DNA from: Haloarcula sp. H-GB4 | GTDB lineage: Archaea; Halobacteriota; Halobacteria; Halobacteriales; Haloarculaceae | Direction of reading: 5' to 3' | Assembly (NCBI RefSeq): GCF_030848575.1 | Contig: NZ_JAVDDX010000004.1 | Location: 124,001-188,000, forward strand | DNA length: 64,000 nt | Shown here: piece after piece, positions 49,703-64,000 of the stretch | How positions within the stretch are numbered: position 1 is the stretch's first letter | How the letters are laid out: every line of letters begins with the position of its first letter | Notes under the pieces: generated by a model | What the model was told of the DNA's origin: nothing | Database searches by the model: none | What the model saw: the letters and a program-made list of their open reading frames with translations, nothing else | Made by a program: the position numbers and the translations under genes

Positions 49703-50284
49703 TCACCCTGGAAGAAAGAGATTGAGAATTGCGACTACCAATCCGGCAAGTCCCATCCGGGCGGCGGCAACGTACCACCGCTGGCCCGAAATCGATCCCA
49801 TGTAGGCGCCGAACACACCTAACACACCGATACCCAGACCGACTGCAATGAGTGCCGCCTCTGCCATTGTGACGACGGACCCTGCTACAAGAAATGGGGC
49901 CAGTGGAATCAGAATCCCGATAAGTGGCCCCAGCCCGCTCATCGTAGCGTGGACGAAGCGAGCACCGCGCTGGTTCTGCTGAACGCGGGTATCATCAAGA
50001 TCCGTGAGCATCGCCTGCTCGATACGCCTGATTTCCGCCCGGGTTTCAGCACGTTCGATTTCCCAGACGCTCCAGACCGCAGAAGTTCCGAGCCCGACTG
50101 CCGCGCCCAGTCCGATTTTGATGACAGTGTACCCGTCCGGAACTCCCGAGAGAACAGCGCCAACGATGATGCCAATGCTTGTGAGCGTCCCGTCGAAGCC
50201 GTTTGAGACGAAATACCGACGGGAGATTGCAAGGACATCTTCCTTCTCAAGAAGCCGTCTGAAGAGTTGTCGAATGGACGCCAC
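49703..50284 (-). CDS. VIT/CCC1-family metal transporter-like protein
   Basis: A 193-residue membrane protein of the VIT1/CCC1 family: RRYFVSNGFDGTLTSIGIIVGA (about 22-43, first helix with the family Asp), GLGAAVGLGTSAVWSVWEIERA, a soluble helical insert, then two to three further helices. VIT proteins move Fe2+ or Mn2+. The metal-binding Glu-rich insert of true VIT1 is replaced by a short charged helix (RAETRAEIRRIEQAMLTDL), so transport activity is uncertain. It lies 6 bp after the DUF211 gene. Confidence 0.82.
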   Translation of the reverse strand: MASIRQLFRRLLEKEDVLAISRRYFVSNGFDGTLTSIGIIVGAVLSGVPDGYTVIKIGLGAAVGLGTSAVWSVWEIERAETRAEIRRIEQAMLTDLDDTRVQQNQRGARFVHATMSGLGPLIGILIPLAPFLVAGSVVTMAEAALIAVGLGIGVLGVFGAYMGSISGQRWYVAAARMGLAGLVVAILNLFLPG

Positions 50285-50290
50285 GACGTC

Positions 50291-50581
50291 TCAGCCATCC
50301 TGTAACGTCCGTCGATCCGTAACAACGGAATCACCGCAGGCAACCTGGTCCACAGAGTGTACGGACCCACCGAGGTTTTTGATTGTTTCATCAATCGCCT
50401 CGAAGTCCAGATCATCGCTCTCAAAGGTTAGCTTGATGTTTTGCACTTCCTGATCTAGTTCGATCAGAGACGACGTTACGCCCTCGACGCTTTCAATTTC
50501 GGCCAGTTGATTGGTGAACGTCAGTAGCGGCGGGTCGTGTGGTTTCAGTACATCGATGACAAGGCGTCGGACTGCTGCCAT
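50291..50581 (-). CDS. DUF211 family protein
   Basis: A 96-residue protein of the DUF211 family, an alpha/beta ferredoxin-like archaeal domain: RRLVIDVLKPHDPPLLTFTN (about 5-24), ESVEGVTSSLIELDQEVQNI and KNLGGSVHSVDQVACGD at the end. It precedes the VIT-like gene by 6 bp and is co-transcribed with it. DUF211 proteins often sit beside membrane proteins, and a metal-sensing or regulatory role is conceivable. Confidence 0.88.
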   Translation of the reverse strand: MAAVRRLVIDVLKPHDPPLLTFTNQLAEIESVEGVTSSLIELDQEVQNIKLTFESDDLDFEAIDETIKNLGGSVHSVDQVACGDSVVTDRRTLQDG

Positions 50582-50914
50582 ATCACAACACGCGAGGGGT
50601 TATAATAAAAATGTGTGCCAACACCACACAGTCACCGCACGAAACGTATCGAGGCACCTAACGACGGTGCTATCCGTTCGCTATCCGGGTACAGATGACA
50701 GACACTCTGCAGGCGAGATGTTATTAGAAGCCCCTGTGTAGTTCTTCAAACAGCGTCTCTGAAGTACCATGCATCTGAGAAGGCATCGATGCGAACAGTT
50801 TGAGACGCAGAAGCCACACTCAACGAGGAGCGAATAGGGACCCGTCTCTGAGTACCGCGCTACGCCCTCCGTTGCCCAGATAGCTGACTGGCATGCAAAC
50901 ACGCGACTACCAGT
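50582..50914. other. 333-bp divergent spacer
   Basis: Spacer between the DUF211 and tandem UspA genes. A minus-strand frame (50902-50681) is open but Cys-rich and unsupported. It probably holds both promoters; no repeat was seen. Confidence 0.4.
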
Positions 50915-51799
50915 ATGTACGACACCATCCTGTTCCCGACCGACGGAAGCGACGCCGCAGAATCGGTACTTGAATACGCGCTACAGATCGCAGCCGAACA
51001 TGAGGCGACGATACACATCCTCAACGTCGCCGACACTGGCCGAGACAGCGTCACCACGATTCGTGGCGAGGTCATCGACGTGCTCGAAACAGAAGGCGAG
51101 CGCATCGTGGCGGAAGCCGAACAATATGCGAAAGACGCCGGCGTTCCCGCCGTCTCTGCGGTCCTCCAGGGTGACCCGCACAAGACGATAGTCGACTACA
51201 GCCAACAGTCCGACAGTGATTGCATCGTTATGCCGACTCACGGACAGCGTGGGATCAAGCGAATACTGCTCGGAAGCGTGACTGAGCGTGTCATCAACAC
51301 AGCAGAAGTTCCTGTCACTGCGGTCAACCCTGACAGAGATCGGTCACTCGTGTATCCGCCACAGCACGTCCTCGTCCCGACAGATGGGAGCCGTGGTGCA
51401 GATCTCGCACTGGCAGAAGGGATTGCTGTCGCGAGGGCGACGGGCGCAACACTCCATCTGCTTCACGTTGTCGAGACCGGCGGTCTCGGGCCTGATGCAC
51501 GCTCCGTCCTGAAAGAGGGGGAGTTGGCCGAGCGGGCGGATGAGATTATCGCTGAAGCGACTGAGAAGATCGACGACACATCGCTTGACACGATAACCAG
51601 CGTCATTGAGTACGGTGACCCCTCGAAGGTGATTTGCGACTACATCGACGCGAATGAAGTCGATCTCGCGGTTATGGGGACACACGGACAAACTGATTTC
51701 AGCAGGTACGTCATGGGTGGCGTCAGCGCCAAAATCGTCCGAAAGTCCCCAGTCCCGGTGACGTGGGTTCGCGAGCCTGAATCCGAATCAGATGAGTAG
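50915..51799 (+). CDS. Tandem universal stress protein
   Basis: A 294-residue protein with two UspA domains. The first (about 1-143) begins ILFPTDGSDAAESVLEYA and ends MPTHGQRGIKRILLGSVTER; the second (about 150-288) begins VLVPTDGSRGADLALAEG and ends MGTHGQTDFSRYVMGGVS. Both keep the ATP-binding GT/THGQ pattern. It is a different branch from the 36.6-kb tandem protein. It stands alone, upstream of rdfA. Confidence 0.88.
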   Translation: MYDTILFPTDGSDAAESVLEYALQIAAEHEATIHILNVADTGRDSVTTIRGEVIDVLETEGERIVAEAEQYAKDAGVPAVSAVLQGDPHKTIVDYSQQSDSDCIVMPTHGQRGIKRILLGSVTERVINTAEVPVTAVNPDRDRSLVYPPQHVLVPTDGSRGADLALAEGIAVARATGATLHLLHVVETGGLGPDARSVLKEGELAERADEIIAEATEKIDDTSLDTITSVIEYGDPSKVICDYIDANEVDLAVMGTHGQTDFSRYVMGGVSAKIVRKSPVPVTWVREPESESDE

Positions 51800-51926
51800 G
51801 TCGGTTCGTGAATCGATCAACTCATACTAGCGCACAAGTCGATAAAGCTCTGCGTGTGAGGAGCCTCGGCAGTACTCCCGATATGCGAGAGTGTTTAGTA
51901 ACTATGGGGCACACATAAATCGGAGC

Positions 51927-52541
51927 ATGACCACAGACGACTCACAGTCCGGTGGGGGAACGAGCAAGGTCGAAGCCGTAATTCAAAAATATGACCTTGT
52001 CGGGATGGGTGCAGAGCTTGAGAATCGGTGGGTTGGTGCTGACGGGGCGGAAGAAAGTACTCGCGACCTTGCTGACTATTTCAACCGATCGGTGCTTGAG
52101 TCCGCCATCGAGGGGAGTGACGCTCCAACATTGAGCGGCGATATCGAGCAGGTCTATCAGTCACTTCGCGAGGATGACGCCGACGCCCCGCTCATACGCT
52201 CCCGCCTCGAACAGAGCGGAGTCGATGTCGAATCTGTGATGGCTGATTTTATTTCCCACCAGACGGTGTATCGCTATCTCAAGAACGACCGTGGCGCGGC
52301 CCGACCCGAGCAGACGCCCGCAGAACGGAAAGAAAACGCTATTGATTCAATACAGCGTCTCCGGGGCCGAACAACCGCTGTAACGAGACAAACAATCGAG
52401 AGTCTGGAAAAAAATGACGCTATCTCAGCAGGCGATTTCAGCATTATCAACGAAGTACAGGTGTTGTGTGAGGACTGCGGCCGTAGCTACGATATTGTCG
52501 CGTTTCTGGAGCAGGGTGGCTGCGACTGCCAAACCACATGA
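51927..52541 (+). CDS. rdfA: RdfA-family (rod-determining factor) protein
   Basis: A 204-residue acidic protein that matches the haloarchaeal RdfA family, named for a Haloferax protein needed for rod shape. Features: GMGAELENRWVG and ESTRDLADYFNRSVLESAIE near the N-terminus, SHQTVYRYLKN in the middle, IQRLRGRTTAVTRQTIESL, and a final zinc site VLCEDCGRSY...GGCDC. ATG 51927 is preferred over a GTG 12 codons upstream because a TATA-like TTTAGTAAC lies about 30 bp before it. It is followed by two paralogous small zinc-finger genes. Haloarchaea hold several paralogues, so the precise role is not certain. Confidence 0.8.
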   Translation: MTTDDSQSGGGTSKVEAVIQKYDLVGMGAELENRWVGADGAEESTRDLADYFNRSVLESAIEGSDAPTLSGDIEQVYQSLREDDADAPLIRSRLEQSGVDVESVMADFISHQTVYRYLKNDRGAARPEQTPAERKENAIDSIQRLRGRTTAVTRQTIESLEKNDAISAGDFSIINEVQVLCEDCGRSYDIVAFLEQGGCDCQTT

Positions 52542-52625
52542 GGTCAGCTGTCCTTATTGTCAAAAGGAAGCTAGTAGCCCAGCCGGCGACCCTGTAGGCA
52601 GACACTACCCCACGACAGCAATCGG

Positions 52626-52904
52626 TCAGCCAAGCCTCGAGAATCGAGCGGTCTTACAATCGACATCGCAGAACGCGTATTCCGTGACGTTGCCAGCACT
52701 ATCTCTGGTAGTGACATTTCGATACCGGACGTTGTCGCTGATCGGCGTTCCACAGTGATCGCAGTGTCGCGTTGCAATCGAGCTAATTACGACCCTGATA
52801 GACTGGCTCTCAACGCTTTCAGGGACTGCCCTCCGCGCTTGGTCTGCGTTTGCGATGTCTGCTGATTGTTGGCTACGGTACTTCTGGGTGTTTTGTGCGT
52901 TCAT
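52626..52904 (-). CDS. Small treble-clef-like zinc-finger protein, copy 1
   Basis: A 92-residue protein with four Cys at 48, 51, 79 and 83: HCDHCGTPISDNVRY and TRDSAGNVTEYAFCDVDC. The CxxCG...FCxxxC layout is that of a treble-clef or TRASH-like zinc finger. A paralogue at 53565 has Cys at exactly the same four positions. Start 52904 (MNAQNTQ) is preferred over 52964 because it aligns with the paralogue's start. On its strand it lies 101 nt downstream of the conserved hairpin element. Function unknown. Confidence 0.75.
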   Translation of the reverse strand: MNAQNTQKYRSQQSADIANADQARRAVPESVESQSIRVVISSIATRHCDHCGTPISDNVRYRNVTTRDSAGNVTEYAFCDVDCKTARFSRLG

Positions 52905-53005
52905 GATGTCGCTGATTATGATTGTGTAGTTGGTGTCGCACCGCTTCGTGAGGTGGGCCGTCACGACCCGAAAACCGTCGGCTGGTGCTTTGGGACCAGC
53001 CAGGA

Positions 53006-53132
53006 CTGACGTTTTCCACCTGTGTGCCGGCGCTTGCCCGCACTGTGGTGGTCTACGTCAGTTTACAATTTGAAAAATGTAAAAAATGTAAAACCGGATG
53101 TAGAACGGTCTGCACCGATCAAGTGCTGGGAC
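53006..53132 (-). promoter_or_regulatory. Conserved leader element with 56-nt hairpin, copy 1 (upstream of zinc-finger gene)
   Basis: On the minus strand this ~127-bp unit begins with GTCCC (53132-53128), passes an AT-rich TTTTACATTTTTTACATTTTT stretch, and ends in a hairpin at 53061-53006. The outer arms are ACTGACGT/ACGTCAGT, the inner arms CCACC/GGTGG, then GTGC-G-GGC/GCC-G-GCAC around an AAGC loop. It lies 101 nt before the zinc-finger gene start at 52904. Two other copies share the same GTCCC-to-hairpin spacing. Confidence 0.65.
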
Positions 53133-53355
53133 AAGAGGCTTGCCTCCCAAGCCGTACAGTCGACGCCCAGATTCATAGACATATCTTTAATGGATGTACA
53201 CTTAATGATTATGTGAGTGATGTTCACACTCGACAGTTATTCGAGTGAGTGAGAAGTCCCATCTCAGTGGCGGAACTGATGGGGGTTATCCAAATTATTA
53301 AATACGACAGTTTAGTATAGAGAGATATGAACCCGGGTATCCAGACGGTAGAAGC
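53133..53355. other. Spacer between the two inverted element copies
   Basis: This 223-bp segment separates the head-to-head zinc-finger transcription units. No gene or further copy of the element was seen. It is AT-rich in the middle (53190-53330). Confidence 0.4.
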
Positions 53356-53480
53356 GTCCCGGAAAACGATTCGATCAGTGGCTGTAGCGATTGGCTATCC
53401 GTTTTTTACACTGCCTACCCGGTAACCTGCGTAGACCACTACAGTCCGGGCAGTAACCCGGCACAGGTGGAAAACGTCGG
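53356..53480 (+). promoter_or_regulatory. Conserved leader element with 55-nt hairpin, copy 2
   Basis: On the plus strand this ~125-bp unit starts GTCCCGG (53356-53362) and ends with a hairpin at 53426-53480. The outer arms are CCTGCGT/ACGTCGG (one mismatch, one G-U), the inner arms CCACT/GGTGG (one U-G), and the tip is a 5-bp CCGGG/CCCGG stem with loop CAGTAA. It lies 84 nt before the ATG of the second zinc-finger gene (53565). Confidence 0.65.
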
Positions 53481-53564
53481 TGAAACGACCATAGGGGCAC
53501 CAGATTCATGTGTAACAGTAGACAGAACGAGTAGACCGCTGTCAACAATAAATCGAGGCAAACA

Positions 53565-53840
53565 ATGAATGGACAATCTGAGGCGGAGCAATCACTAACA
53601 ACTGCTCGCTGTGCTATGGAAGCCAGCGGCAACACAGCCGCTGCCGAACTAAATATCCAGAACAAGTCAACGCGGACCTTGGTCGGTGGGTCACCGAACT
53701 ACCGTTGTGATTACTGCGGCCAGGTGATCAACGAGCAGATGAAGTACAGCGGAGTTACGATACGCGACTCAGACGGAGGGATAACAGAGCACTTCTTCTG
53801 TGAAGAAGAATGCATGACATCGCAATACCCCAACATATAG
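53565..53840 (+). CDS. Small treble-clef-like zinc-finger protein, copy 2
   Basis: A 91-residue paralogue of the protein at 52904-52626, with Cys 48, 51, 79 and 83 at identical positions: YRCDYCGQVINEQMKY and TIRDSDGGITEHFFCEEEC. Only the zinc-finger half is clearly conserved; the N-terminal 45 residues are polar and variable but of the same length. The two genes point away from each other and each follows a copy of the hairpin element. Such finger proteins in haloarchaea have no assigned function; a regulatory role is possible. Confidence 0.75.
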   Translation: MNGQSEAEQSLTTARCAMEASGNTAAAELNIQNKSTRTLVGGSPNYRCDYCGQVINEQMKYSGVTIRDSDGGITEHFFCEEECMTSQYPNI

Positions 53841-54117
53841 CAAACCTGTTTGGATTGGGAGCAGAACCAACCTTGGATTTATAACGAGAGAGTATATAAT
53901 CCAAGATCTTCGGGTTAGCTTCGGCATTACGGAAAACGAAGTGATAAGAAGTACCGGCACATGATACAACAACTAAATCTTCAACGCAAAAAACAGTCCG
54001 TGCGTATCTAGATTTTTACTGAATCTAAACAGATACGCTATTATTCTGTTCTGAGACATTGTCCGATATATAAATATTCTCGAAATGTTAATATTCAGTG
54101 GTACAGAATAAGGGACG
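53841..54117. other. AT-rich spacer
   Basis: No gene. It contains TATA-like steps (for example near 53890 and 54060) but no copy of the hairpin element. Confidence 0.45.
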
Positions 54118-54126
54118 AGTTTATAT
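54118..54126 (+). promoter_or_regulatory. TATA box for the 44-residue ORF
   Basis: GTTTATATG is centred 28 bp before ATG 54150, an ideal archaeal TATA-to-start distance, implying a leaderless message. Confidence 0.55.
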
Positions 54127-54149
54127 GTTTTCATCAGCCATGCCATTGT

Positions 54150-54284
54150 ATGACATGCTACAACGCAAGCAAGGGAATTCTATACGAAAACCTTCCAACA
54201 GATGTACCGAGACCAGAAGAAGAGGAGGAGAACAAGCTAAGTGCCAGTGACGGTGGCGCAACCCAGACGGTCGCTAACGACTAA
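54150..54284 (+). CDS. 44-residue leaderless sORF
   Basis: An ORF from ATG 54150 to TAA 54282-54284. The peptide starts MTCYNASKGILYENLPTDVP and continues with an acidic RPEEEEENK segment and a Ser/Asp-rich end. The TATA box 28 bp upstream fits leaderless translation. It is soluble, acidic and has one Cys; no family is recognised. It converges with the lpdA gene ~200 bp away. Confidence 0.5.
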   Translation: MTCYNASKGILYENLPTDVPRPEEEEENKLSASDGGATQTVAND

Positions 54285-54480
54285 ATCTGGATCGTAGTCG
54301 GCAGCCTCTGCGGGATAACGTAATATACACACCGAAGAGAGATCATTGAACCCCCGTAGAGACTGTTTGTTCCGGAACTGCGGTTTCGAATCGGCAAACA
54401 GTATTGGATGTACGATGTCTGGGTGAATATCTGTTCGGTTTGGTTGTGGATATAGTGACTGAGGCGTCAATATGGTTCGG

Positions 54481-55914
54481 TCAGTTTCGTCTGTGTATTG
54501 CCTTCCCTCTCGCATTCTGTGCAGCTTCCATTATCGCTTCACTTAATGTTGGATGTGTGTGAACAGTTGAGCCGATGTCCTGAAGCTTTGCACCCATTTC
54601 AATCATGGCTGCGATTTCTGCAATCAACTCGGATGCTTCCGGACCGACAATCTGTGCACCGATCACACGTTCAGTTTCTTTTTCCGCGACAATTCGGACA
54701 AAGCCTTCTGTCCGGTTTGCTGTTAGTGCTCGTCCAGACGCCTGAAACTGGAACTCACCTGTGACAGGTGTAATACCTTCGTTTGCTGCTTCGTTCTCCG
54801 TTAACCCGACAGTTCCGATTTCCGGATCGGTAAACACGGCAGCCGGGAGTGCCTGATAATCGACTGCAGCGGCTTCACCGGCGATTACTTCCGCTGCAAC
54901 TTCCCCTTCTTTCGATCCCTTGTGTGCGAGCATCGGTTCACCCGCAACGTCACCGACCGCGAAAATATGCTCCTTGTTCGTCCGACATCTGCTATCCGTT
55001 GGAATGAACCCCTGAGAATTAGTTTCGACGCCGGCATCGTCGATACTGAGCGTATCAGTCACCGGGCGTCTGCCGACGGCGACGAGTATTCTGTCAGCAG
55101 TGAGTTCTATAGCGCTATCATGCGCCGCCTCATCTGCGGGGACAGCAGTCAGGACAGCCTCACCGTCCGACTCTGTCCAACTGTCCGCAGTGTATCCGAA
55201 ATGGAAATCCACACCGAGACGTTCTGCTCGCTTCCTGACTATCGAGGCAATGTCTTCCTGATAGCTGGGGAGCGCCTGCTCTAGCATCTCAATTACCGAT
55301 ACGTCGCTCCCAAGTCGACTATAGACAGTCGCTAGCTCCATGCCGATGTACCCGGCTCCAACGATTACGAGCTCGTCGGGTACTGTTTCGAAGTTCAGCG
55401 CGCCGTCTGACGAGACGATACGCTCGTCATCAAAGTCGAACTCCGGAATTTCAATCGGTCTGGACCCCGTTGCGATGATGCAGTTTTCGAATTTCAGCGA
55501 CTCAGACCCCTGTCCCTCACCCTGATGGACGATTCTGATTTTGTTTTCATCAGCGAATTCGGCAGTCCCTTGCAACAAGTTCACGCCAGCCGCCGTACAC
55601 AGTTGCTCGATACCACTCGTTAACTGGTCGACGACACCATCTTTCCAGCTAATCATCTCGTCAAGCGCAACTGTTGGGTCTGCGTAAATCCCCAGTTCTT
55701 CCGCATGGCCCGCCTCCGATGCCAGTTTTGAACCGTTTATCAGGGCCTTGGAGGGGATACAACCACGATTGAGACAGGCTCCCCCATACTCCCCCTTTTC
55801 AACGAGCGTGACATCAAGGCCAAGCTGTGAAGCACGGATTGCGGCGACGTATCCGCCGGGGCCCGCGCCAATAACCAGTACGTCAGTCGACGTAGTTACA
55901 TCTCCGACAACCAT
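54481..55914 (-). CDS. lpdA: Dihydrolipoyl dehydrogenase (E3)
   Basis: A 477-residue flavoprotein disulfide reductase. The FAD site is VLVIGAGPGGYVAAIRASQL (about 12-31), the redox disulfide GGACLNRGCIPSKALI (about 43-58, Cys-x4-Cys), the NAD site IVGAGYIGMELATVYSRLG (about 184-202) and the C-terminal His-Glu pair in HTHPTLSEAI. It re-oxidises the lipoyl group of E2 with NAD+. The start overlaps the E2 stop (TAATG), closing the four-gene operon. Confidence 0.95.
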   Translation of the reverse strand: MVVGDVTTSTDVLVIGAGPGGYVAAIRASQLGLDVTLVEKGEYGGACLNRGCIPSKALINGSKLASEAGHAEELGIYADPTVALDEMISWKDGVVDQLTSGIEQLCTAAGVNLLQGTAEFADENKIRIVHQGEGQGSESLKFENCIIATGSRPIEIPEFDFDDERIVSSDGALNFETVPDELVIVGAGYIGMELATVYSRLGSDVSVIEMLEQALPSYQEDIASIVRKRAERLGVDFHFGYTADSWTESDGEAVLTAVPADEAAHDSAIELTADRILVAVGRRPVTDTLSIDDAGVETNSQGFIPTDSRCRTNKEHIFAVGDVAGEPMLAHKGSKEGEVAAEVIAGEAAAVDYQALPAAVFTDPEIGTVGLTENEAANEGITPVTGEFQFQASGRALTANRTEGFVRIVAEKETERVIGAQIVGPEASELIAEIAAMIEMGAKLQDIGSTVHTHPTLSEAIMEAAQNARGKAIHRRN

Positions 55915-57443
55915 TATTCTAGTAGTAGCAGGTTTGGATTTCGCAGGTACTTCTGTATGGAGTTTGTGAACCGTGCGGCGTCTGCGCCGTCAAGCACTCG
56001 ATGATCGAACGACAGGGATAGTGTCATGATGTGTCGAGGTTCTATCGTCTCTTCACCATCAGCTTCGACAACCCGTGGCTTCTTTTTGATCTCTCCCAGT
56101 GCCAGGATGGCGCTCTCCGGTTGGTTGATGATTGGCGTTCCGTACTCCCCGCCAATCCCGCCGATGTTCGAGATAGTAAATGTCCCGCCACGCATTTCTT
56201 TTGGCGAAAGACTGCGCTCTCTCGCCCTCTGGGTTTTTTCGTTGGTCTCCGATGCGACCTCCAGCAGGCCTTTCGCATCTACGTCCTCAACAACGGGAAC
56301 CAGTAGTCCGTCATCAGTTGCTGTTGCGACACCGATGTTGTAATACTGCTTTTCCACAATCTCTTCGTTTGCTTCGTCGAGAGAGATATTCACCTGTGGA
56401 TTCTCTTGCAGAGCCGCGGCACACGCTTTCATAACGAACGGCATGTACGTCAGTCGGATATCATGTTCCTCGGCCTCCTGTCTGAGCGTTGAACGAGCGT
56501 CGACCAGCGCAGTAACATCGACCTCGTCCTGATGAGTGACGTGCGGGGCCGTGTATTTCGACGACATCATCGCCGATCCAATCGTCTGCCTGATCCCGTT
56601 ATACGGCTTCCGAGACTCGGGGCGCGCTGGCTCGTCCGCCGTTGTCCCCTCAGCTACCGCTTCTCGATCCGTTTTCTGTGCCTGCTGTTGTGCCTTTGCA
56701 TACTCCTGGACCGTTTCGAGCGTGACAAAGGGTTCTCCGTCTTTTTGTTCATCAGTGGGGACAGTATCGAGATCAATCCCTTCTTCGGCTGCAATGTGTC
56801 TTGTTTTCGGGACGGCCACCGTCGTCTCCCGGTCCGCCGTTTCTCTCGTCTGTACCGGACTGACAGACTGCTCCGGGGCTGCCTGCTGTTTTGGTTGCTC
56901 CGCAGCAGCGGTCTGTTGACTTGAACGCTCTTGAGTCGAAGATTCCGCACTCGCGTACGCGCGAACATCTGACTCAGTTATACGCCCCGGAGATGAGTCC
57001 GCAATGCTGGAAATATCGACGCCCAGTTCGCGCGCGAGACGCCGCACAGACGGCGGGGCGGGGACTTGGACCCGCTCTGTCACTACCGGTTCTGACTGTG
57101 GATCTTCGGCTGGCTGTGCTGTGGCTCCAACGTCGGGTTGCTGGCCACTGTCCGCAGTGGTGTCGTCTGTCGGCGCTGTTTCAGTTCTCTCCGGTTCGTC
57201 TTCACCCTCAACCCGAAAGACGATAATCACATCACCGACTGGGACTATCTCTCCTTCCGCGGCACGAAGTTCTTCAACGACACCATTAACCGGCGATGGG
57301 ACATCAACGACGGCTTTGTCAGTCTCGACTTCCGCTACCGGTTGGTCTTCGGAAACTGAGTCGCCCGGCGCAACCCGCCATCGAAGGATTTCGCCCTCAG
57401 CGACACCTTCACCGACATCAGGTAGTTCAAATTCACGTACCAT
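55914..57443 (-). CDS. 2-oxoacid dehydrogenase E2 (lipoyl acyltransferase)
   Basis: A 509-residue E2 with an N-terminal lipoyl domain (Lys43 in ETDKAVVDVP), a Pro/Glu-rich linker, a subunit-binding domain VRRLARELGVDISSIADSSP (about 127-146), a second related segment KTRHIAAEEGIDLDTVP (about 208-224), and the catalytic domain ending SFDHRVLDGADAARFTN. The doubled binding-domain pattern is unusual. ATG 57443 (MVREFELPDVG) is the start, 2 bp after the E1-beta stop. It transfers the acyl group to CoA. Confidence 0.92.
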   Translation of the reverse strand: MVREFELPDVGEGVAEGEILRWRVAPGDSVSEDQPVAEVETDKAVVDVPSPVNGVVEELRAAEGEIVPVGDVIIVFRVEGEDEPERTETAPTDDTTADSGQQPDVGATAQPAEDPQSEPVVTERVQVPAPPSVRRLARELGVDISSIADSSPGRITESDVRAYASAESSTQERSSQQTAAAEQPKQQAAPEQSVSPVQTRETADRETTVAVPKTRHIAAEEGIDLDTVPTDEQKDGEPFVTLETVQEYAKAQQQAQKTDREAVAEGTTADEPARPESRKPYNGIRQTIGSAMMSSKYTAPHVTHQDEVDVTALVDARSTLRQEAEEHDIRLTYMPFVMKACAAALQENPQVNISLDEANEEIVEKQYYNIGVATATDDGLLVPVVEDVDAKGLLEVASETNEKTQRARERSLSPKEMRGGTFTISNIGGIGGEYGTPIINQPESAILALGEIKKKPRVVEADGEETIEPRHIMTLSLSFDHRVLDGADAARFTNSIQKYLRNPNLLLLE

Positions 57444-57444
57444 G

Positions 57445-58461
57445 TTAGAAATCGACTGTTTCGCGGATTCCGTCCTGAATACGGACCGCCTGTGGCAGGT
57501 AGTAATCCTCCAGCGAATGGAGTGGCATGGGAGCATCGAACCCAGCAATTCGTTTGATTGGCGCCTCCTGATGAACGAGCGCTTCTTCCTGAATCGTCGT
57601 TGCGATTTCCGCCCCTAATCCACCAGTCTTCGGTGCTTCGTGGACAATCGCGGCTCTCCCGGTCTTTTTGAATGATTCAGTAATCGTCTCTATATCGAGG
57701 GGTGACAGGGTTCGCAGGTCAATGACTTCGACGTCGATGTCATGTGACTGGTGAAGGTTCTCCGCAGCGATCAGCGCCGGCCGAGTCATCGCGCCCCAAG
57801 TGTAGACTGAGATATCGCTCCCTTCACGCCGGATAGCGGCCTCATTCAACGACACTTCATACGGTTTCGTCGGGACATCTTCACGGAAGGCACGGTAGAT
57901 TAATTTCGGCTCTAGGAAAATAACTGGATCCGGGTCATGGATGGACGCCGCTAGGAGCCCCTTCGCATCGTATGGCGTGCTCGGCGAGACGACTTTGAGC
58001 CCGGGCTCGTGCACGAAGAACGCTTCCTTTGACTCGGAGTGATGTTCTGGGGCTCGGATGCCGCCACCATATGGCGCCCGTATCACCATCGGCACCGAGT
58101 ACTGCCCCTGACTGCGGCTCCGGAGGCGTGCAGCGTGACTGACGATCTGGTCGAAGGCAGGATACATGAAGCCCATGAACTGCATCTCAGGAACAGGCTT
58201 CATCCCGGTCTGGGCGAGTCCAATCGAAGCCCCGATGATTCCGGCTTCGGCCAGTGGCGTGTCGATAACGCGGTCTTCGCCGAACTCTTCGTATAGCTGG
58301 TCGGTTGCTCTGAAGACACCACCGTTTTTCCCGACATCTTCACCCAGAACGACGACGCTGTCGTCCTGTGCCATCTCTGTGTACAGGCCATCCTGTATCG
58401 CCTCCACGAGGGTGAGACTCTGTGCGTTTTGCTGTGTCTGCGTGCTGGCTGTCGAACTCAT
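57445..58461 (-). CDS. 2-oxoacid dehydrogenase E1 beta
   Basis: A 338-residue E1-beta. It has the transketolase-like pyrimidine domain (VLGEDVGKNGGVFRATDQLY, about 37-56, with the cofactor-site Glu; and PEMQFMGFMYPAFDQIVSHA) and a C-terminal ligand-binding domain (VEVIDLRTLSPLDIETI). It pairs with E1-alpha as an alpha2beta2 thiamine-diphosphate enzyme. Start 58461 overlaps the E1-alpha stop by 4 bp. Confidence 0.93.
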   Translation of the reverse strand: MSSTASTQTQQNAQSLTLVEAIQDGLYTEMAQDDSVVVLGEDVGKNGGVFRATDQLYEEFGEDRVIDTPLAEAGIIGASIGLAQTGMKPVPEMQFMGFMYPAFDQIVSHAARLRSRSQGQYSVPMVIRAPYGGGIRAPEHHSESKEAFFVHEPGLKVVSPSTPYDAKGLLAASIHDPDPVIFLEPKLIYRAFREDVPTKPYEVSLNEAAIRREGSDISVYTWGAMTRPALIAAENLHQSHDIDVEVIDLRTLSPLDIETITESFKKTGRAAIVHEAPKTGGLGAEIATTIQEEALVHQEAPIKRIAGFDAPMPLHSLEDYYLPQAVRIQDGIRETVDF

Positions 58462-59606
58462 TCCAGCACCTCCGAGAACGCGCCCTCGTCATACTTCTCG
58501 CGCAGCCGGTTCAATTCGTCCCGCTGTTCTTCGAGTCGCGCTGGAACGTCCTCGTACACATGCTCAACGATGTTGTCCGGACTCGCCTCTGTCTGCTCTG
58601 CCGTTTCTATCGCCTCGCTGACTTCTTGTTCGATACTGTCTTGAATCTCACTCTCGAGGGCGGAATCGAGGATGCCCTCGTTGTACAGATACGTTTCAAT
58701 ACGGTCCACAGGGTCGCGGTCCCGCCAGGCCTCCTCTTCTGATTCGTCTCTGTAAACGGACGGATCATCCGCAGTGGTGTGTGCACCGAAGCGATACTGG
58801 ACAGACTCGATAAGCGTTGGGCGTCGCTCTCCAGGGCCCGGATTCCGGGCTTTCGCCAGTGCCTCACTAGCGACTTTATACACCGCCAGCGGGTCCAGTC
58901 CGTCAACTCGAACGCCGTCAATGCCATATGCCTGTGCCTTTTCAGCAATGGTTTCGCTCGCGGTCTGTCGCTCTCGAGGGACCGAAATTGCCCATTGATT
59001 GTTGTTACAGACGAATACAGCGGGGACATCGAACACCCCGGCGAAATTCAGCCCTTCGTGGAAATCTCCTTCGGAGGTCGCACCATCACCGAGGTGACAC
59101 AGGACGGCCGTATCGGTCTTTCCCTGTAGCTTGTGTCCCCACGCCATTCCCATAGCCTGTGGAACCTGGGTCGCAATCGGAATATACTCCGGCATCACGT
59201 TGACGTCGTCCGGGATCGCGTATCCGTCTCTATAGCCTCGCAGTGGCTCGAAAAGGGATACCAGATCCATTCCATGAGCGTACTTCGCCGCGTGCTCTCT
59301 GTAGGTCGGGAACAACCAGTCTTGCTCGGCAAGTGCCAGGCTCGTAGCGACCTGTGACCCTTCTTGTCCGGTCATTGGTGCGTACGTCGCGAGCCGCCCC
59401 TGTCGCTGGAAGCTGATCGCCCGCTGGTCGAAGTGCCGAGCGAGCTTGATTGTCTCATACAGCTCAAGTAACTGCCTATCTGAAATATCCGGGACAGACG
59501 CCTGTGGCAGTACGTTGCCTTCAGCATCCAGTATCTGGACCAGCTCCGAGTCTTCTCTGACGGCCGCTGGCACGTCTTTGCTTCCTGCTTCGTTTTTCAT
59601 GTTCAT
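58458..59606 (-). CDS. 2-oxoacid dehydrogenase E1 alpha
   Basis: A 382-residue E1-alpha. The ThDP motif GDGATSEGDFHEGLNFAGVF...NN (about 173-202) and the phosphorylation-loop region YRFGAHTTADDPSVYRDESE (about 270-289) are clear and most like the branched-chain type, though haloarchaeal assignments are often wrong. It is the first gene of E1a-E1b-E2-E3. The conserved hairpin element ends 98 nt upstream of ATG 59606 (ATG 59600 is an alternative). The adjacent branched-chain amino-acid importer supports a BCAA or 2-oxoacid role. Confidence 0.92.
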   Translation of the reverse strand: MNMKNEAGSKDVPAAVREDSELVQILDAEGNVLPQASVPDISDRQLLELYETIKLARHFDQRAISFQRQGRLATYAPMTGQEGSQVATSLALAEQDWLFPTYREHAAKYAHGMDLVSLFEPLRGYRDGYAIPDDVNVMPEYIPIATQVPQAMGMAWGHKLQGKTDTAVLCHLGDGATSEGDFHEGLNFAGVFDVPAVFVCNNNQWAISVPRERQTASETIAEKAQAYGIDGVRVDGLDPLAVYKVASEALAKARNPGPGERRPTLIESVQYRFGAHTTADDPSVYRDESEEEAWRDRDPVDRIETYLYNEGILDSALESEIQDSIEQEVSEAIETAEQTEASPDNIVEHVYEDVPARLEEQRDELNRLREKYDEGAFSEVLE

Positions 59607-59704
59607 TGTTTTCGATGATGTTTTTTGTATTCGACAGACGCTCCCTCAGCAGACCCTGATAACCCGAACAGCCGCTGGTTACGGCTCCCCGAGCGTGTTC
59701 AAGG

Positions 59705-59828
59705 CTGGCGTTTTCCACCAGGCACAGGGGCGAACTGTGCGCTGGCAGTCTACGCCAGTTTAAATGTCGAAAATGTAAAGAATGTAGCTGTGGAAGAGGG
59801 CAGTGCCCAATCCATTAACTGCCGGGAC
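59705..59828 (-). promoter_or_regulatory. Conserved leader element with 54-nt hairpin, copy 3 (oxoacid dehydrogenase operon)
   Basis: On the minus strand the unit starts GTCCCGG (59828-59822), passes TTTACATTTTCG, and ends in a hairpin at 59758-59705. The outer arms are CTGGCGT/ACGCCAG: the A-U pair of copy 1 is replaced here by G-C. Within lies a CCAG-GCACAG/CTGTGC-CTGG stem. It sits 98 nt before the E1-alpha start, matching the spacing in the other two copies. Confidence 0.65.
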
Positions 59829-60271
59829 AGCTGACCTGCAGGGCAGGCGATAGGGTTCAAGCCCGGATGCATATATCGAAACTAACATGGTAGATACTTA
59901 TTGTTTGTGCGACAGCCGTTCACACGCCACAGTAGCCATTCCGGTGTGAACGGTGACAGCTGCTGGCCCGAAGCGGCGTGGCGGGTGTAGTAAGTAAAAC
60001 ATAGTTGACCATTATCCCTATATGCGACATTTTGAGATGATGTCGGTACGGGCGATATTCCGGCACTCTTACCGACGGTACAAGATCGAGAACCGCTGTA
60101 AAAGATAGATATACTCAATTGTCTATAACTTCACTGGAGCCGAGTCTACGGTGTGAAAATCTGTGCGCTGGTTATGAGCGCTGCCACGGACTCAGCGGCC
60201 TGTACAGTATCACACGTAGATGGTATTCCCGTTGCAAAGCGTAGTCACCAAGCCAGTGGTGGGCACAGGAG
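59829..60271. other. 443-bp spacer with a perfect inverted repeat
   Basis: Spacer between the dehydrogenase leader and the end of livF. It contains an exact 10-bp inverted repeat (CCGTTCACAC 59916-59925 and GTGTGAACGG 59944-59953) around an 18-bp loop. No gene was seen. Confidence 0.55.
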
Positions 60272-60976
60272 CTACCCGCCGAGGAAGTCCTCGCGAACTT
60301 GTTGATCGTTGAGAAGTGCCTCCCCACTGTTCTCGTGTCGGTTCTGCCCCTGCACAAGGACATAGCCGCGATCACACCGCCGCAATGCCTCCTTGGCGTT
60401 TTGCTCGACGAGGAGAACAGCAGTACCGGCGTCGTTGATCTCGTCAATGCGGTCAAACATCTCATCGACGAGGTCTGGTGCAAGGCCTGCACTGGGCTCG
60501 TCAAGGAGTAGCAGATCTGGATCGAGCATGAGCGCACGGCCCATCGCCAGCATCTGTTGTTGGCCCCCTGAAAGTGTGCCTGCCTTCTGCTCCGACCGAG
60601 TCTCCAGTATCGGGAACCGGTTGTAAACCGCCTGTAGCCGGTCTTCCGGGAACTGGTCCAGCGTGTATGCGCCCATCTTGAGGTTCTCTGTGACCGTCAA
60701 TGGCTCAAACACGTTGTTGCTCTGGGGGACGAAGCTCAACCCATATGAGATGATATCTTCCGGTTGTTCGCCGGCGATATCCCTGTCATTGAATACAATT
60801 TTACCCCCCATGTATGTCGTCAGTCCGAACACTGATTTCATTACAGTGGACTTGCCCGCACCGTTCGGGCCGACAATGGTGATGTACTCACTCTGTCCGA
60901 CTTCCATGTCGACATCTGTGAGGATCTGCAGATCACCGTACCCGGCGTCCAGTTGCTGTACTGACAGCAGACTCAT
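60272..60976 (-). CDS. livF: Branched-chain amino-acid ABC transporter ATPase LivF
   Basis: A 234-residue ATPase with Walker A GPNGAGKSTVMKSVFG (about 35-50), signature LSGGQQQMLAMGRALMLDPD (about 135-154), Walker B LLLLDEPSAGLAP and switch His region LLVEQNAKEA typical of LivF. It overlaps the livG stop by 4 bp and is the last gene of livHMGF in this window. No binding protein gene (LivJ/K) is seen before the window edge. Confidence 0.92.
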   Translation of the reverse strand: MSLLSVQQLDAGYGDLQILTDVDMEVGQSEYITIVGPNGAGKSTVMKSVFGLTTYMGGKIVFNDRDIAGEQPEDIISYGLSFVPQSNNVFEPLTVTENLKMGAYTLDQFPEDRLQAVYNRFPILETRSEQKAGTLSGGQQQMLAMGRALMLDPDLLLLDEPSAGLAPDLVDEMFDRIDEINDAGTAVLLVEQNAKEALRRCDRGYVLVQGQNRHENSGEALLNDQQVREDFLGG

Positions 60977-61800
60977 ATTTTCACCTCTTCCCCAAGATAT
61001 GCGTCAAGCACTTTCTCGTTATTTTTCACTGCGTCCGGTTGCCCCTCTGTGAGCACACTCCCCTGATGCATCACGATGACCGTATCGCAGTTGTTCATGA
61101 TAACGTCCATGTCGTGTTCGACGAAGAGGAAGGTGTAGCCCTGCTCTTTGAGCGTATGTAACCGGTCGATGAGTTTCTCCTCGAGCGTCGGATTGACTCC
61201 CGCAAGTGGTTCGTCCAGCAGTACCATCTCGGGGTCGGTCATGAGCACACGCGCCATCTCCAGCAGTTTCCGTTGGCCCCCCGAGAGATTGCCGGCGGAT
61301 TCGTGCGCAACGTGCTCAATCTCAAACAGTTCGAGCATCTCCCAGGCCTGTTCTCGGAGTTCTTTTTCCTGTTCGACGACCTGTGTTCTGGCTCGCGGGA
61401 GGACCGTTCGCCAGAGTGCTTCGCCGGCCTGGTTCTGTGGTGCTAGCATGAGGTTTTCGAGCACGGTCATCTCTGAGAGCTCTCGTGCTATCTGGAAGGT
61501 CCGGACGAGTCCCTGATTTGCGACCTGATCTGACCGATATCCCGTTATCTCCGTATCGTTGAATTCGACTGCGCCCCCGTCTGGACGTTGCACACCGGTA
61601 ATCAGGTCGAACGTCGTCGACTTGCCAGCACCGTTTGGACCAATCAGACCGGTTATCGACCCCTTTTCGACGTGGAAAGAGACATCAGCGACAGCGGTAA
61701 TACCACCAAACGTCTTTCGTAGATTCTCCACTTTGAGTATCTGCTCTTGCTGTCCGTTCTGGGTCTGGTCGCTCCGTGCTGATTGTACGTTCTTACTCAT
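60973..61800 (-). CDS. livG: Branched-chain amino-acid ABC transporter ATPase LivG
   Basis: A 275-residue ATPase. Walker A GPNGAGKSTTFDLITG (about 53-68), the long LivG-type insert ending EHVAHESAGN, signature LSGGQRKLLEMARVLMTDPE (about 172-191), Walker B VLLDEPLAGVNP and FVEHDMDVIM. ATG 61800 is chosen; it overlaps the livM stop by 8 bp. The first ~20 residues are a polar extension absent from bacterial LivG. Confidence 0.92.
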   Translation of the reverse strand: MSKNVQSARSDQTQNGQQEQILKVENLRKTFGGITAVADVSFHVEKGSITGLIGPNGAGKSTTFDLITGVQRPDGGAVEFNDTEITGYRSDQVANQGLVRTFQIARELSEMTVLENLMLAPQNQAGEALWRTVLPRARTQVVEQEKELREQAWEMLELFEIEHVAHESAGNLSGGQRKLLEMARVLMTDPEMVLLDEPLAGVNPTLEEKLIDRLHTLKEQGYTFLFVEHDMDVIMNNCDTVIVMHQGSVLTEGQPDAVKNNEKVLDAYLGEEVKI

Positions 61801-63100
61801 TGTCGTCCTCGCGAGTCGCCTGTTGTGAGAGATCAACGCTCGATGCGATTGCTTTTCGATGGCCAAGCAGCCCATCCGGGTGCCGTTGCATGAGGTACAC
61901 CAGAACGATGCCTAACAACATCAATCTGAGAGCCGAAATACTCACGTCCTGCACGGAGTACGCCAGCAGCGGCGTGACATCAAGAGTCCCCAGCTCGGCA
62001 AGCGCACCGACAAGCGTATCGGGAGCGTTGCTGAGTTGGAGGTACTCTGCCACGACCCGGCGGATGAACGAGGGGCCTTCGAAGAGCAGACTCGCGAATA
62101 GGGCACCGCCAACAATACTCCCTGTGGGCGAGCCGGTCCCGCCGATAAACAGCGCAATGAAGATGTAGAACGTCTGTATCGGCTTGAACATCCGTGGCGA
62201 TGCATAGCCTCCGGAAAGACGCCAGAGAATGGCAATCAGGCCCATAAGCGCACAGCCAAGCGCGAACGTCTTGATCTTGAACAGGCGCGTATCTTTCCCC
62301 AGCGCCTGTGTGACCTGCTGGTCCTCGCGAATACTCTTGAGGACCCGTCCGAAGGGTGACTTCCCGATGCGGACCATCAGCCAGTACAGGAGGCCGAGGC
62401 AGAGGCATAACATAACTACGTACGCCCAGCCGATGACCAGCGTCTCCTCAATCCCCAGCGGTTCCACAGCGCTGAATATCGCCGCACCCAGAGCATTGGG
62501 TGCTGGGGCTGTTGCGGCCGGGTCTGTGTAAAATAGAATCCGGATCGGATTCGATGGCAGCGACAGCCCCGTCGCACCGCCCGTCCCAAATGCAACGCCA
62601 GCAACGCGAGTATTCGCGAACTCCGGTGCACGAAGTGTGAGGCGAACGATTTCCGAGAATGCAACAGTAACGATCGCAAGATAATCCGCACGAAGTCGGA
62701 TCGCAGGCAACGCAGCGAGGCCGCCGATGACCCCAGTCACGAGAATAGCACCCACAATCGCGACCGGAAGTGGCAGCCCGAAACCGGGCGGACTGGCCGT
62801 CACTGGAGCAGCCAGTATCCCCATCGTGTACACACCGATGGCCATGAACCCGGCCGCACCGAGATTGAACAGACCTGCGTACCCCCACTGAAGGTTTAGT
62901 GCGAGCGCTAACATGGCATAAATTACCGAGAGGAACGCGACACGACGAAGCGTGTTGACTGTGCCATTCAGCTGGAACCCAAGGACGATACTGAAAAGCG
63001 CGTACAAGCCCCCAATCGCGAGTGCCAGGGCGATAAGCAAGCGCACGTCGTTGTTGCCAAGCCAGCCCTCAGCCCGCGCCTGGATAGAGCCGGTACTCAT
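61793..63100 (-). CDS. livM: Branched-chain amino-acid ABC permease LivM
   Basis: A 435-residue permease with about ten membrane segments. Motifs: LNLQWGYAGLFNLGAAGFMA (about 69-88, typical LivM), the coupling-loop region RIGKSPFGRVLKSIREDQQV (about 238-257), and FIGGTGSPTGSIVGGAL. It overlaps livH by 4 bp and livG by 8 bp. A large outside loop (about 168-205, with TDPAATAPAPNALG) is longer than in bacterial LivM, and the basic C-terminus (LMQRHPDGLLGHRKAI) is typical. Confidence 0.9.
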   Translation of the reverse strand: MSTGSIQARAEGWLGNNDVRLLIALALAIGGLYALFSIVLGFQLNGTVNTLRRVAFLSVIYAMLALALNLQWGYAGLFNLGAAGFMAIGVYTMGILAAPVTASPPGFGLPLPVAIVGAILVTGVIGGLAALPAIRLRADYLAIVTVAFSEIVRLTLRAPEFANTRVAGVAFGTGGATGLSLPSNPIRILFYTDPAATAPAPNALGAAIFSAVEPLGIEETLVIGWAYVVMLCLCLGLLYWLMVRIGKSPFGRVLKSIREDQQVTQALGKDTRLFKIKTFALGCALMGLIAILWRLSGGYASPRMFKPIQTFYIFIALFIGGTGSPTGSIVGGALFASLLFEGPSFIRRVVAEYLQLSNAPDTLVGALAELGTLDVTPLLAYSVQDVSISALRLMLLGIVLVYLMQRHPDGLLGHRKAIASSVDLSQQATREDDNE

Positions 63101-64000
63101 GCCGTCATCCTCCCACTGAACAGCCCCGACGGACGCACGAGCAGCATGACGATCATGATAACGAATGCCGCAACCAGAAGGAAGCTGGCTGGAATCCAGA
63201 CAAGCGCAAGTCGGCTCGCGATACCGAGAATGACGCCGCCGACCATGGCGCCGTAGATCGAACCGACACCGCCGAGGATGACCGCTGCGAACACCAGTAA
63301 CAGCAGGTCCCACCCCATTGTCACTGTGAGCGTCCCCTGCTGTAATGCGATAAGAAAGCCTGCACACCCGGTAAGCCCGCCGCCGATAATCCACGTGAGC
63401 TTGACAACGCGCTCCGTTGGGATGCCGGTGACCTTTGCGAGGTCCTTGTTCGCGGCCATTGCACGCATCGCCATGCCGATCTTTGTGTACTGGAGTAGAA
63501 TGTGCGTTCCGAGCATTAGGAGTGCGGCGACGACAACCAGCGTAATCTGGTGTCCGCCGAACGTGACGCCCGCAACGGTAATCTGGGGGACGTTGCCGCC
63601 TGTCAGCCCGCGACTGTCGGTCAGGAAGGAATAGGTGAGGAAATTACGAAGGAACAGCGCGACGCCGACACTGGCAATCATCAGCGTCACACCATCGGCA
63701 CTGCGCATCGGTTTGAACACGATTCGATCCAGCAAAAGGGAAAGAGCGGCTGTCAGGACCGCAGCGACGAGTAAGCCAGCCAGAAGCGCCAGTGGAGTAT
63801 TGACGACATTGATGCCAAGCTCATTCGAACCGACTGCGATTGGTCCGCCGATAAGAATGAGCGATTCGACAGAGAACTCTCCCAGCCCGGCAATCAGAAA
63901 CGCCGTCGCCCAGCCGGCGAACGCACCGCTCGTAATCAGATCACCGTGGGCAAAGTTCGCGAAATTGAGGATACTGTATGTCATCGAGAGACCGACACCG
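63097..64000 (-). CDS. livH: Branched-chain amino-acid ABC permease LivH (5' end beyond window)
   Basis: At least 300 residues of a LivH permease, with no start inside the window: the open frame continues through GVGLSMTYSILNFANFAHGD at the right edge, a piece that normally lies ~15-25 residues into the protein. Other motifs are MAMRAMAANKDLAKVTGIPT and VFAAVILGGVGSIYGAMVGG. An ATG at 63984 exists but is probably internal. It is the first visible gene of livHMGF. Confidence 0.9.
   Translation of the reverse strand, partial: GVGLSMTYSILNFANFAHGDLITSGAFAGWATAFLIAGLGEFSVESLILIGGPIAVGSNELGINVVNTPLALLAGLLVAAVLTAALSLLLDRIVFKPMRSADGVTLMIASVGVALFLRNFLTYSFLTDSRGLTGGNVPQITVAGVTFGGHQITLVVVAALLMLGTHILLQYTKIGMAMRAMAANKDLAKVTGIPTERVVKLTWIIGGGLTGCAGFLIALQQGTLTVTMGWDLLLLVFAAVILGGVGSIYGAMVGGVILGIASRLALVWIPASFLLVAAFVIMIVMLLVRPSGLFSGRMTA

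Follow-up and report, generated by a model that had tools for sequence, protein, structure and literature searches.

A candidate translation-dependent leader common to a DUF7576 zinc-finger gene pair and a 2-oxoacid dehydrogenase operon in Haloarcula

The window analyzed here, a stretch of 64,000 nucleotides from Haloarcula sp. H-GB4, contains two small zinc-finger genes, designated ZnfM and ZnfP, which lie between an RdfA-family gene and a 2-oxoacid dehydrogenase operon:

51927-52541, plus strand: RdfA-family gene (PF21811, 227.3 bits, 1.8e-67), convergent with ZnfM
52626-52904, minus strand: ZnfM, DUF7576 zinc-finger protein of 92 aa (PF24461, 34.9 bits), ATG start
53565-53840, plus strand: ZnfP, DUF7576 zinc-finger protein of 91 aa (PF24461, 27.1 bits)
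54481-59606, minus strand: 2-oxoacid dehydrogenase operon (NCBIfam matches)
54481-55914, minus strand: lpdA (NCBIfam)
about 55914-57443, minus strand: E2 (NCBIfam)
57445-58461, minus strand: E1 beta (NCBIfam)
58458-59606, minus strand: E1 alpha (NCBIfam)

Both zinc-finger proteins belong to Pfam DUF7576, as their HMM scores (34.9 bits for ZnfM and 27.1 bits for ZnfP) exceed the curated cut-off of 27 bits. A sequence-only reading of this DNA had described two divergent genes for proteins of 91-92 residues, with four cysteines at the same positions and dissimilar N-terminal halves, and this description held in all its parts. Cysteines 48, 51, 79, and 83 are common to ZnfM and ZnfP, which are 27% identical overall, while the first halves are alike almost only at MNxQ and at S35/R37. 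The ATG start of ZnfM is conserved in 12 Haloarcula genomes and in relatives; an alternative in-frame GTG start would give a protein of 112 aa. In Haloarcula sinaiiensis, the gene is annotated from this GTG as 112 aa (L058 3941-4279, corresponding to 52626-52964 of the window), that is, with 20 residues more than from the conserved ATG. The structure model of ZnfM had a pLDDT of 69, with the N-terminal 30 residues modeled at low confidence (alignment depth of seven sequences). Compared with solved structures, it gave a weak fold match (Foldseek E 0.04, Z up to 5.6), and the finger aligned to ribosomal L24e (Z about 4.3-5.3) and zf-PARP fingers with middling scores. A sequence search of solved structures returned chance matches only. 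Relatives were also sought in viral contigs and phages; none were found there, and a virus or phage origin was thus rejected.

When 146 genomes of the family were searched at the DNA level, the head-to-head pair turned up in 12 genomes of the same genus, the species including Haloarcula amylolytica, argentinensis, sebkhae, japonica, and vallismortis; a protein scan of genome contigs recovered five Haloarcula species only. The order rdfA, ZnfM (leftward), ZnfP (rightward), lpdA is conserved in 12 of 12 Haloarcula genomes, and a universal-stress gene precedes rdfA in the 12 genomes, with L053 giving a partial match only. Because ZnfM and ZnfP each form a single clade of 12 (support 98/98 and 100/100), the sequences indicate that the pair is an old inverted duplication, which took place before the split of these 12 Haloarcula species. 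Since the leaders of the two genes are homologous, the earlier proposal of an inverted duplication of gene plus regulatory element is borne out. The two genes lie far apart on a single plasmid in Haloarcula sinaiiensis, with ZnfM and rdfA near 518 kb and ZnfP and the dehydrogenase operon near 116 kb. A rearrangement of this plasmid (pHsi540; L019, L058) has separated the two genes, and genes for a VapB-like antitoxin and a PilT-like protein now lie upstream of ZnfP. The ZnfP gene is not listed in the PLSDB table of the Haloarcula sinaiiensis plasmid, which is an incomplete table.

The neighboring rdfA gene is an unambiguous family member (227.3 bits against a curated cut-off of 27 bits) and one of six RdfA-family genes in the Haloarcula sp. 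H-GB4 genome. Most RdfA genes are reported to adjoin an SMC-like gene (PMC10869688); the one at 51927-52541 is flanked by the universal-stress gene and ZnfM. Both zinc-finger genes had been described as lying beside rdfA. This is true of ZnfM, which is convergent with it across a gap of 84 bp, but not of ZnfP, which faces lpdA. Furthermore, no rdfA gene was found within 3-8 kb of seven non-Haloarcula loci, namely, those of Haloferax mediterranei, G249, G174, and four sister-genus members. Thus, the rdfA part of the earlier interpretation falls by the test which that reading had set for itself; the association is confined to the Haloarcula loci, and rdfA was rejected as a part of the system. 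The adjacency of rdfA and ZnfM is local synteny only.

The hairpin ahead of each zinc-finger gene is the 3' part of a leader of ~170 nt, which consists of a TATA box, an AUG, a short upstream open reading frame (uORF) with a Phe/Thr-rich and U-rich tail, and the hairpin (P3), followed by the gene. The window contains three copies: those of ZnfM and ZnfP and a third (59704-59872, minus strand) immediately ahead of E1-alpha in the E1alpha-E1beta-E2-lpdA operon. The placement of each zinc-finger gene behind a hairpin copy had been recognized correctly, while the uORF, the P1/P2 stem, and the third leader copy had been missed. The elements of the three leaders are as follows:

53222-53228, minus strand: TGTGAAC box of the ZnfM leader, beginning exactly 52 nt before the uORF ATG
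53200-53204, minus strand: TATA-box core TAAGT of the ZnfM leader, centered 25 nt upstream of the uORF ATG
53063-53176, minus strand: ZnfM leader uORF, 37 codons, MNLGVDC...SGFTFFTFFKL, with its TAA at the base of P3; in-frame pN/pS 0.42
53126-53170, minus strand: P1/P2 stem-loop within the ZnfM uORF, CUGGG...GGCUUG.....CAAGCC...CCCAG; three pairs with double-sided changes
about 53066-53095, minus strand: U-rich tail of the ZnfM uORF
53005-53062, minus strand: P3 hairpin of the ZnfM leader (folding z -5.4; covariation)
53298-53304, plus strand: TATA box TTAAATA of the ZnfP leader, centered 26 nt upstream of the uORF ATG
53327-53425, plus strand: ZnfP leader uORF, 32 codons, MNPGIQ...GYPFFTLPTR; pN/pS 1.24
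53425-53481, plus strand: P3 hairpin of the ZnfP leader (folding z -2.6)
59918-59924, minus strand: TGTGAAC box in the promoter of the operon, beginning 52 nt before the uORF ATG
59750-59872, minus strand: third-leader uORF, 40 codons, MHPGLNPIACPAGQLSRQLMDWALPSSTATFFTFSTFKLA, with its TAG within the 5' arm of P3; in-frame pN/pS 0.32
59704-59759, minus strand: P3 hairpin of the third leader, before the dehydrogenase operon (covariation)

Matches to the hairpin are not expected by chance (0 in 100 dinucleotide shuffles). We scanned 391 haloarchaeal genomes, drawn from the larger group with strict filters, using the covariance model R2. Every one of the 12 Haloarcula genomes has exactly three leader copies, and G249 and G174 have one each; weak reverse-strand echoes of the hairpin were also seen. 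A protein profile run over the same 391 genomes detected 26 full-length close DUF7576 relatives in 14 genomes, exactly the leader-bearing ones, and the leader was present at all 26 genes. The plasmid gene of Haloferax mediterranei, the closest named relative outside the genus, has the same hairpin upstream, in which the stems are changed yet paired. Thus, the proposed link between element and gene family was upheld across the haloarchaeal genomes (26/26 close homologues and the Haloferax mediterranei gene), in contrast to the proposed link with rdfA (0/7 outside loci). In four sister-genus relatives, the uORF is retained, while the leader DNA is unrelated and the P3 sequence is not kept.

Dispersed copies of the element were found neither in its own genome nor in the 391-genome scan, and we therefore rejected a mobile repeat. 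Two further matches were set aside: that in G229 (R2, E 0.0024) lacks GTAGAC and GAAAAC and has the appearance of a GC-rich hairpin arisen by chance, and that on contig 48 of G099 is surrounded by numerous GTTTTACA/TGTAAAAC copies, which suggests a repeat array rather than a leader. The latter locus (L185, about 223.6 kb) carries many direct and inverted GTTTTACA/TGTAAAAC within about 400 bp and is possibly a replication origin. A search for more regulon members through the repeat TTYACRNNNTTYACA gave no clear excess over a control pattern. With a leader-peptide profile, the true copies, all in genomes with a DUF7576 gene, were separated by a clear gap from the background, which began at E about 0.005, and no more members emerged.

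In P3, a stem of 8 bp is followed by the AGA/AAA internal loop, then by 5 bp, a second internal loop (ACA/ACA in the ZnfM leader), and an apical stem. Relative to shuffled sequences, the ZnfM hairpin (z -5.4) and the ZnfP hairpin (z -2.6) are both stable. Across 21 leaders, P3 shows eight pairs with double-sided changes (40 cells), a value which none of 500 shuffles reached and which compares with at most 7 cells in slid controls. The AGA/AAA loop is nearly invariant, while the adjacent stems vary. A second structure, P1 (CCGGG/CCCGG) around P2 (GGCUUG/CAAGCC), lies within the uORF and has three pairs with double-sided changes (7 cells; again 0/500 shuffles as high). Among the four sister-genus relatives, two have a post-uORF hairpin of greater stability than shuffled sequences, but L153 and L157 do not. 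Covariance models of Rfam 15 had no match in window positions 50000-57000 (E <= 1) or in L086, L151, L155, and L157 (E <= 0.5), and known Rfam families were rejected on this basis. The aligned copies have no U-run 3' of P3; the U-tract lies before it. By inspection, the UUUUC of the tail could pair with GAAAA of P3, a type of pairing that is generic.

The promoter geometry of the leader is exact. In 39 of 39 leader copies, the distance from the TATA-box center to a downstream ATG is 25 or 26 nt, and this ATG opens a uORF that ends at or near P3. The uORFs of the ZnfM and operon copies have 34-40 codons and those of the ZnfP copies mostly 31-35, with one of 26. Because haloarchaeal mRNAs are mostly leaderless (72% of transcripts in H. 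volcanii; PMC4983044), the transcript most likely begins with the uORF AUG, a 5' end that we place from promoter spacing. P3 and the main ATG are separated by roughly 90 nt, in which no TATA box was seen by eye. The ZnfM and operon promoters have in common the TGTGAAC box, located 52 nt before the ATG in every Haloarcula copy, whereas the ZnfP promoter lacks it; the box is a likely operator at the DNA level for the two copies that carry it. The ZnfP leader (53298-53425) has neither the box nor peptide constraint, and this copy may therefore be changing function or decaying.

The ZnfM and operon uORFs are conserved in frame, with an in-frame pN/pS of 0.42 in the ZnfM set and 0.32 in the operon set, as compared to 0.73-1.22 in the other frames. 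The ZnfP peptide is not: its set has an in-frame pN/pS of 1.24, indicating that it is not constrained, and the position of its stop codon drifts. The frame is preserved by a 9-nt deletion in two ZnfM copies and by a 3-nt difference in Haloferax mediterranei. In the four sister genus leaders, whose DNA is unrelated, a TATA box is followed by a leaderless uORF of 37-46 codons with a Phe/Thr tail (LFTFFTPFTFFTRTLA, RFFTLSKRFTRFTQ, TPFTRFTFLKTF, and STFFKRFTRFTA; quoted ends before the stop are FTFFTPFTFFTRTLA, RFTRFTQ, and STFFKRFTRFTA) and then by the DUF7576 gene. In the tail, TTT and ACA are used far more often than in the background; in the operon-set uORFs, TTT accounts for 45 of 48 Phe codons, as compared to 20% in the genes of the window. 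This bias implies that the U-rich RNA itself is under selection, and selection at the RNA level could thus explain the Phe and Thr residues. The chance that ten lineages would all be open in frame, given their composition, is about 1e-4 if they are treated as independent, which they are not. The open frame by itself is weak evidence of coding.

The dehydrogenase operon is coinherited with the leaders in 12 of 32 genomes of the genus. An E1-alpha orthologue of at least 93% identity occurs only in these 12, while the others reach at most 60%. Thus, the module was inherited as one physical block, and this weakens the argument from co-occurrence alone. Genes of a branched-chain amino acid ABC transporter (60272-63999) lie directly upstream of the operon leader, a neighborhood that gives a hint at the substrate of the operon.

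The locus thus presents a conserved leader with an open uORF, exact promoter geometry, covarying stems, and a tie to these genes. From these features, we infer translation of the uORF, regulation in cis, and an attenuation step, and we favor, at a probability of roughly 0.55, a cis-acting, translation-dependent (attenuator-like) leader common to the DUF7576 pair and the 2-oxoacid dehydrogenase operon. Transcription would begin at the uORF AUG, so that a ribosome could load at once and translate 32-40 codons, the last of which form a Phe/Thr-rich, U-rich stretch resembling the haloarchaeal T-stretch terminator. This terminator motif, a T run with a TC dinucleotide, ends about 95% of transcription in vivo in an H. 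volcanii reporter (PMC7237163), and by inspection, runs such as TTTTTTACATTTTTC in the uORF tail are of this type. Coupling of transcription and translation is indicated in haloarchaea (PMC8576121); a first ribosome close behind the polymerase could affect both termination at the U-tract and the folding of P3, which has the stop codon at its base or within its 5' arm. The progress and speed of the ribosome through the tail would then set whether the downstream gene is made. The first candidates for the signal would be the supply of Phe or Thr, or stalling by the nascent chain. A more specific version, which we advance only tentatively, is an archaeal ribosome-dependent attenuator in which the Phe/Thr codons of the leaderless uORF double as a T-stretch terminator, a ribosome, by moving or stalling, directly hides or uncovers the site of termination, and the zinc-finger regulator pair and the dehydrogenase operon are controlled together.

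The main rival is that a protein, perhaps the DUF7576 finger itself, binds P3 as an RNA operator, in the manner of ribosomal proteins acting on their own mRNAs. This would give autoregulation and bring the operon under the same control, and the uORF would be incidental or serve to clear the RNA. The presence of the leader at every close DUF7576 gene and at one other gene type only is consistent with such an operator, as are the nearly invariant AGA/AAA loop beside variable stems and the alignment of the finger model to L24e and zf-PARP. On the other hand, distant relatives retain the uORF and not the P3 sequence, the constraint on the uORF is frame-specific in two of three sets, and the weak fold match says nothing on function. 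We therefore consider this rather unlikely. If the uORF product acted in trans as a small protein, the hairpin and spacer would be the intercistronic region of a two-gene operon. This reading would explain why the peptide is under purifying selection in two sets, and haloarchaea commonly have small proteins and uORFs (PMC4983044). It is harder to reconcile with three near-copies per genome, each before a gene, with a stop codon that stays at the hairpin, with covarying stems that overlap the reading frame, and with the degenerate ZnfP leader peptide, and we regard it as unlikely.

A metabolite riboswitch, which would fold around a small ligand with no need of translation, would suit a structured, covarying leader ahead of a metabolic operon, but no Rfam family matches, conserved unpaired nucleotides are few, and the RNA fold is less well conserved across families than the uORF; we deem it improbable. 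Least probable is an element acting solely as DNA, either an operator or a mobile repeat with no RNA function. The copies are indeed limited to one replicon region, and the upstream TGTGAAC box is itself a likely operator for two of them. Nevertheless, the element always sits between promoter and gene, with its orientation and position unchanged, its stems show compensatory changes, and the three copies per genome are not accompanied by dispersed ones.

Haloarchaeal mRNAs being mostly leaderless, structured and regulated leaders are thought untypical of them (PMC4983044), and a literature search, which was not exhaustive, found no description of an archaeal leader-peptide attenuator. A common leader before zinc-finger genes and a metabolic operon suggests control through translation of a leader peptide, which is hardly described in archaea, and its leaderless uORF bears on how a long regulated 5' region can work without Shine-Dalgarno initiation. 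The tie to a defined operon also gives work on DUF7576, a family with no assigned function, a first starting point, and transcription-translation coupling in archaea becomes testable with one small reporter.

The leader resembles the bacterial ribosome-mediated attenuators of the trpL and pheL type in its short ORF at the mRNA start, the residue-rich tail, the hairpins near the end of the ORF, and the metabolic operon downstream. It differs in being archaeal with a leaderless uORF, in having its U-tract within the uORF before the hairpin, and in that the downstream genes include zinc-finger proteins. Because the bacterial-type terminator hairpin with a U-run after it is absent, we do not class the leader as a ribosome-mediated attenuator. 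In the small size of their products and their place near a putative target operon, the zinc-finger genes recall the Brz-type haloarchaeal regulators (PMC2253796). While ZnfM and ZnfP pass the Pfam cut-off, their subfamily is distinguished from DUF7576 at large by a variable N-terminal part of ~45 residues and by the dedicated leader. Last, small ORFs in long haloarchaeal leaders have been described in Haloferax volcanii (16 cases of 15-31 aa; PMC4983044). Those were found in transcript maps of one species, whereas here the same uORF and structured RNA stand before three units and recur across genera.
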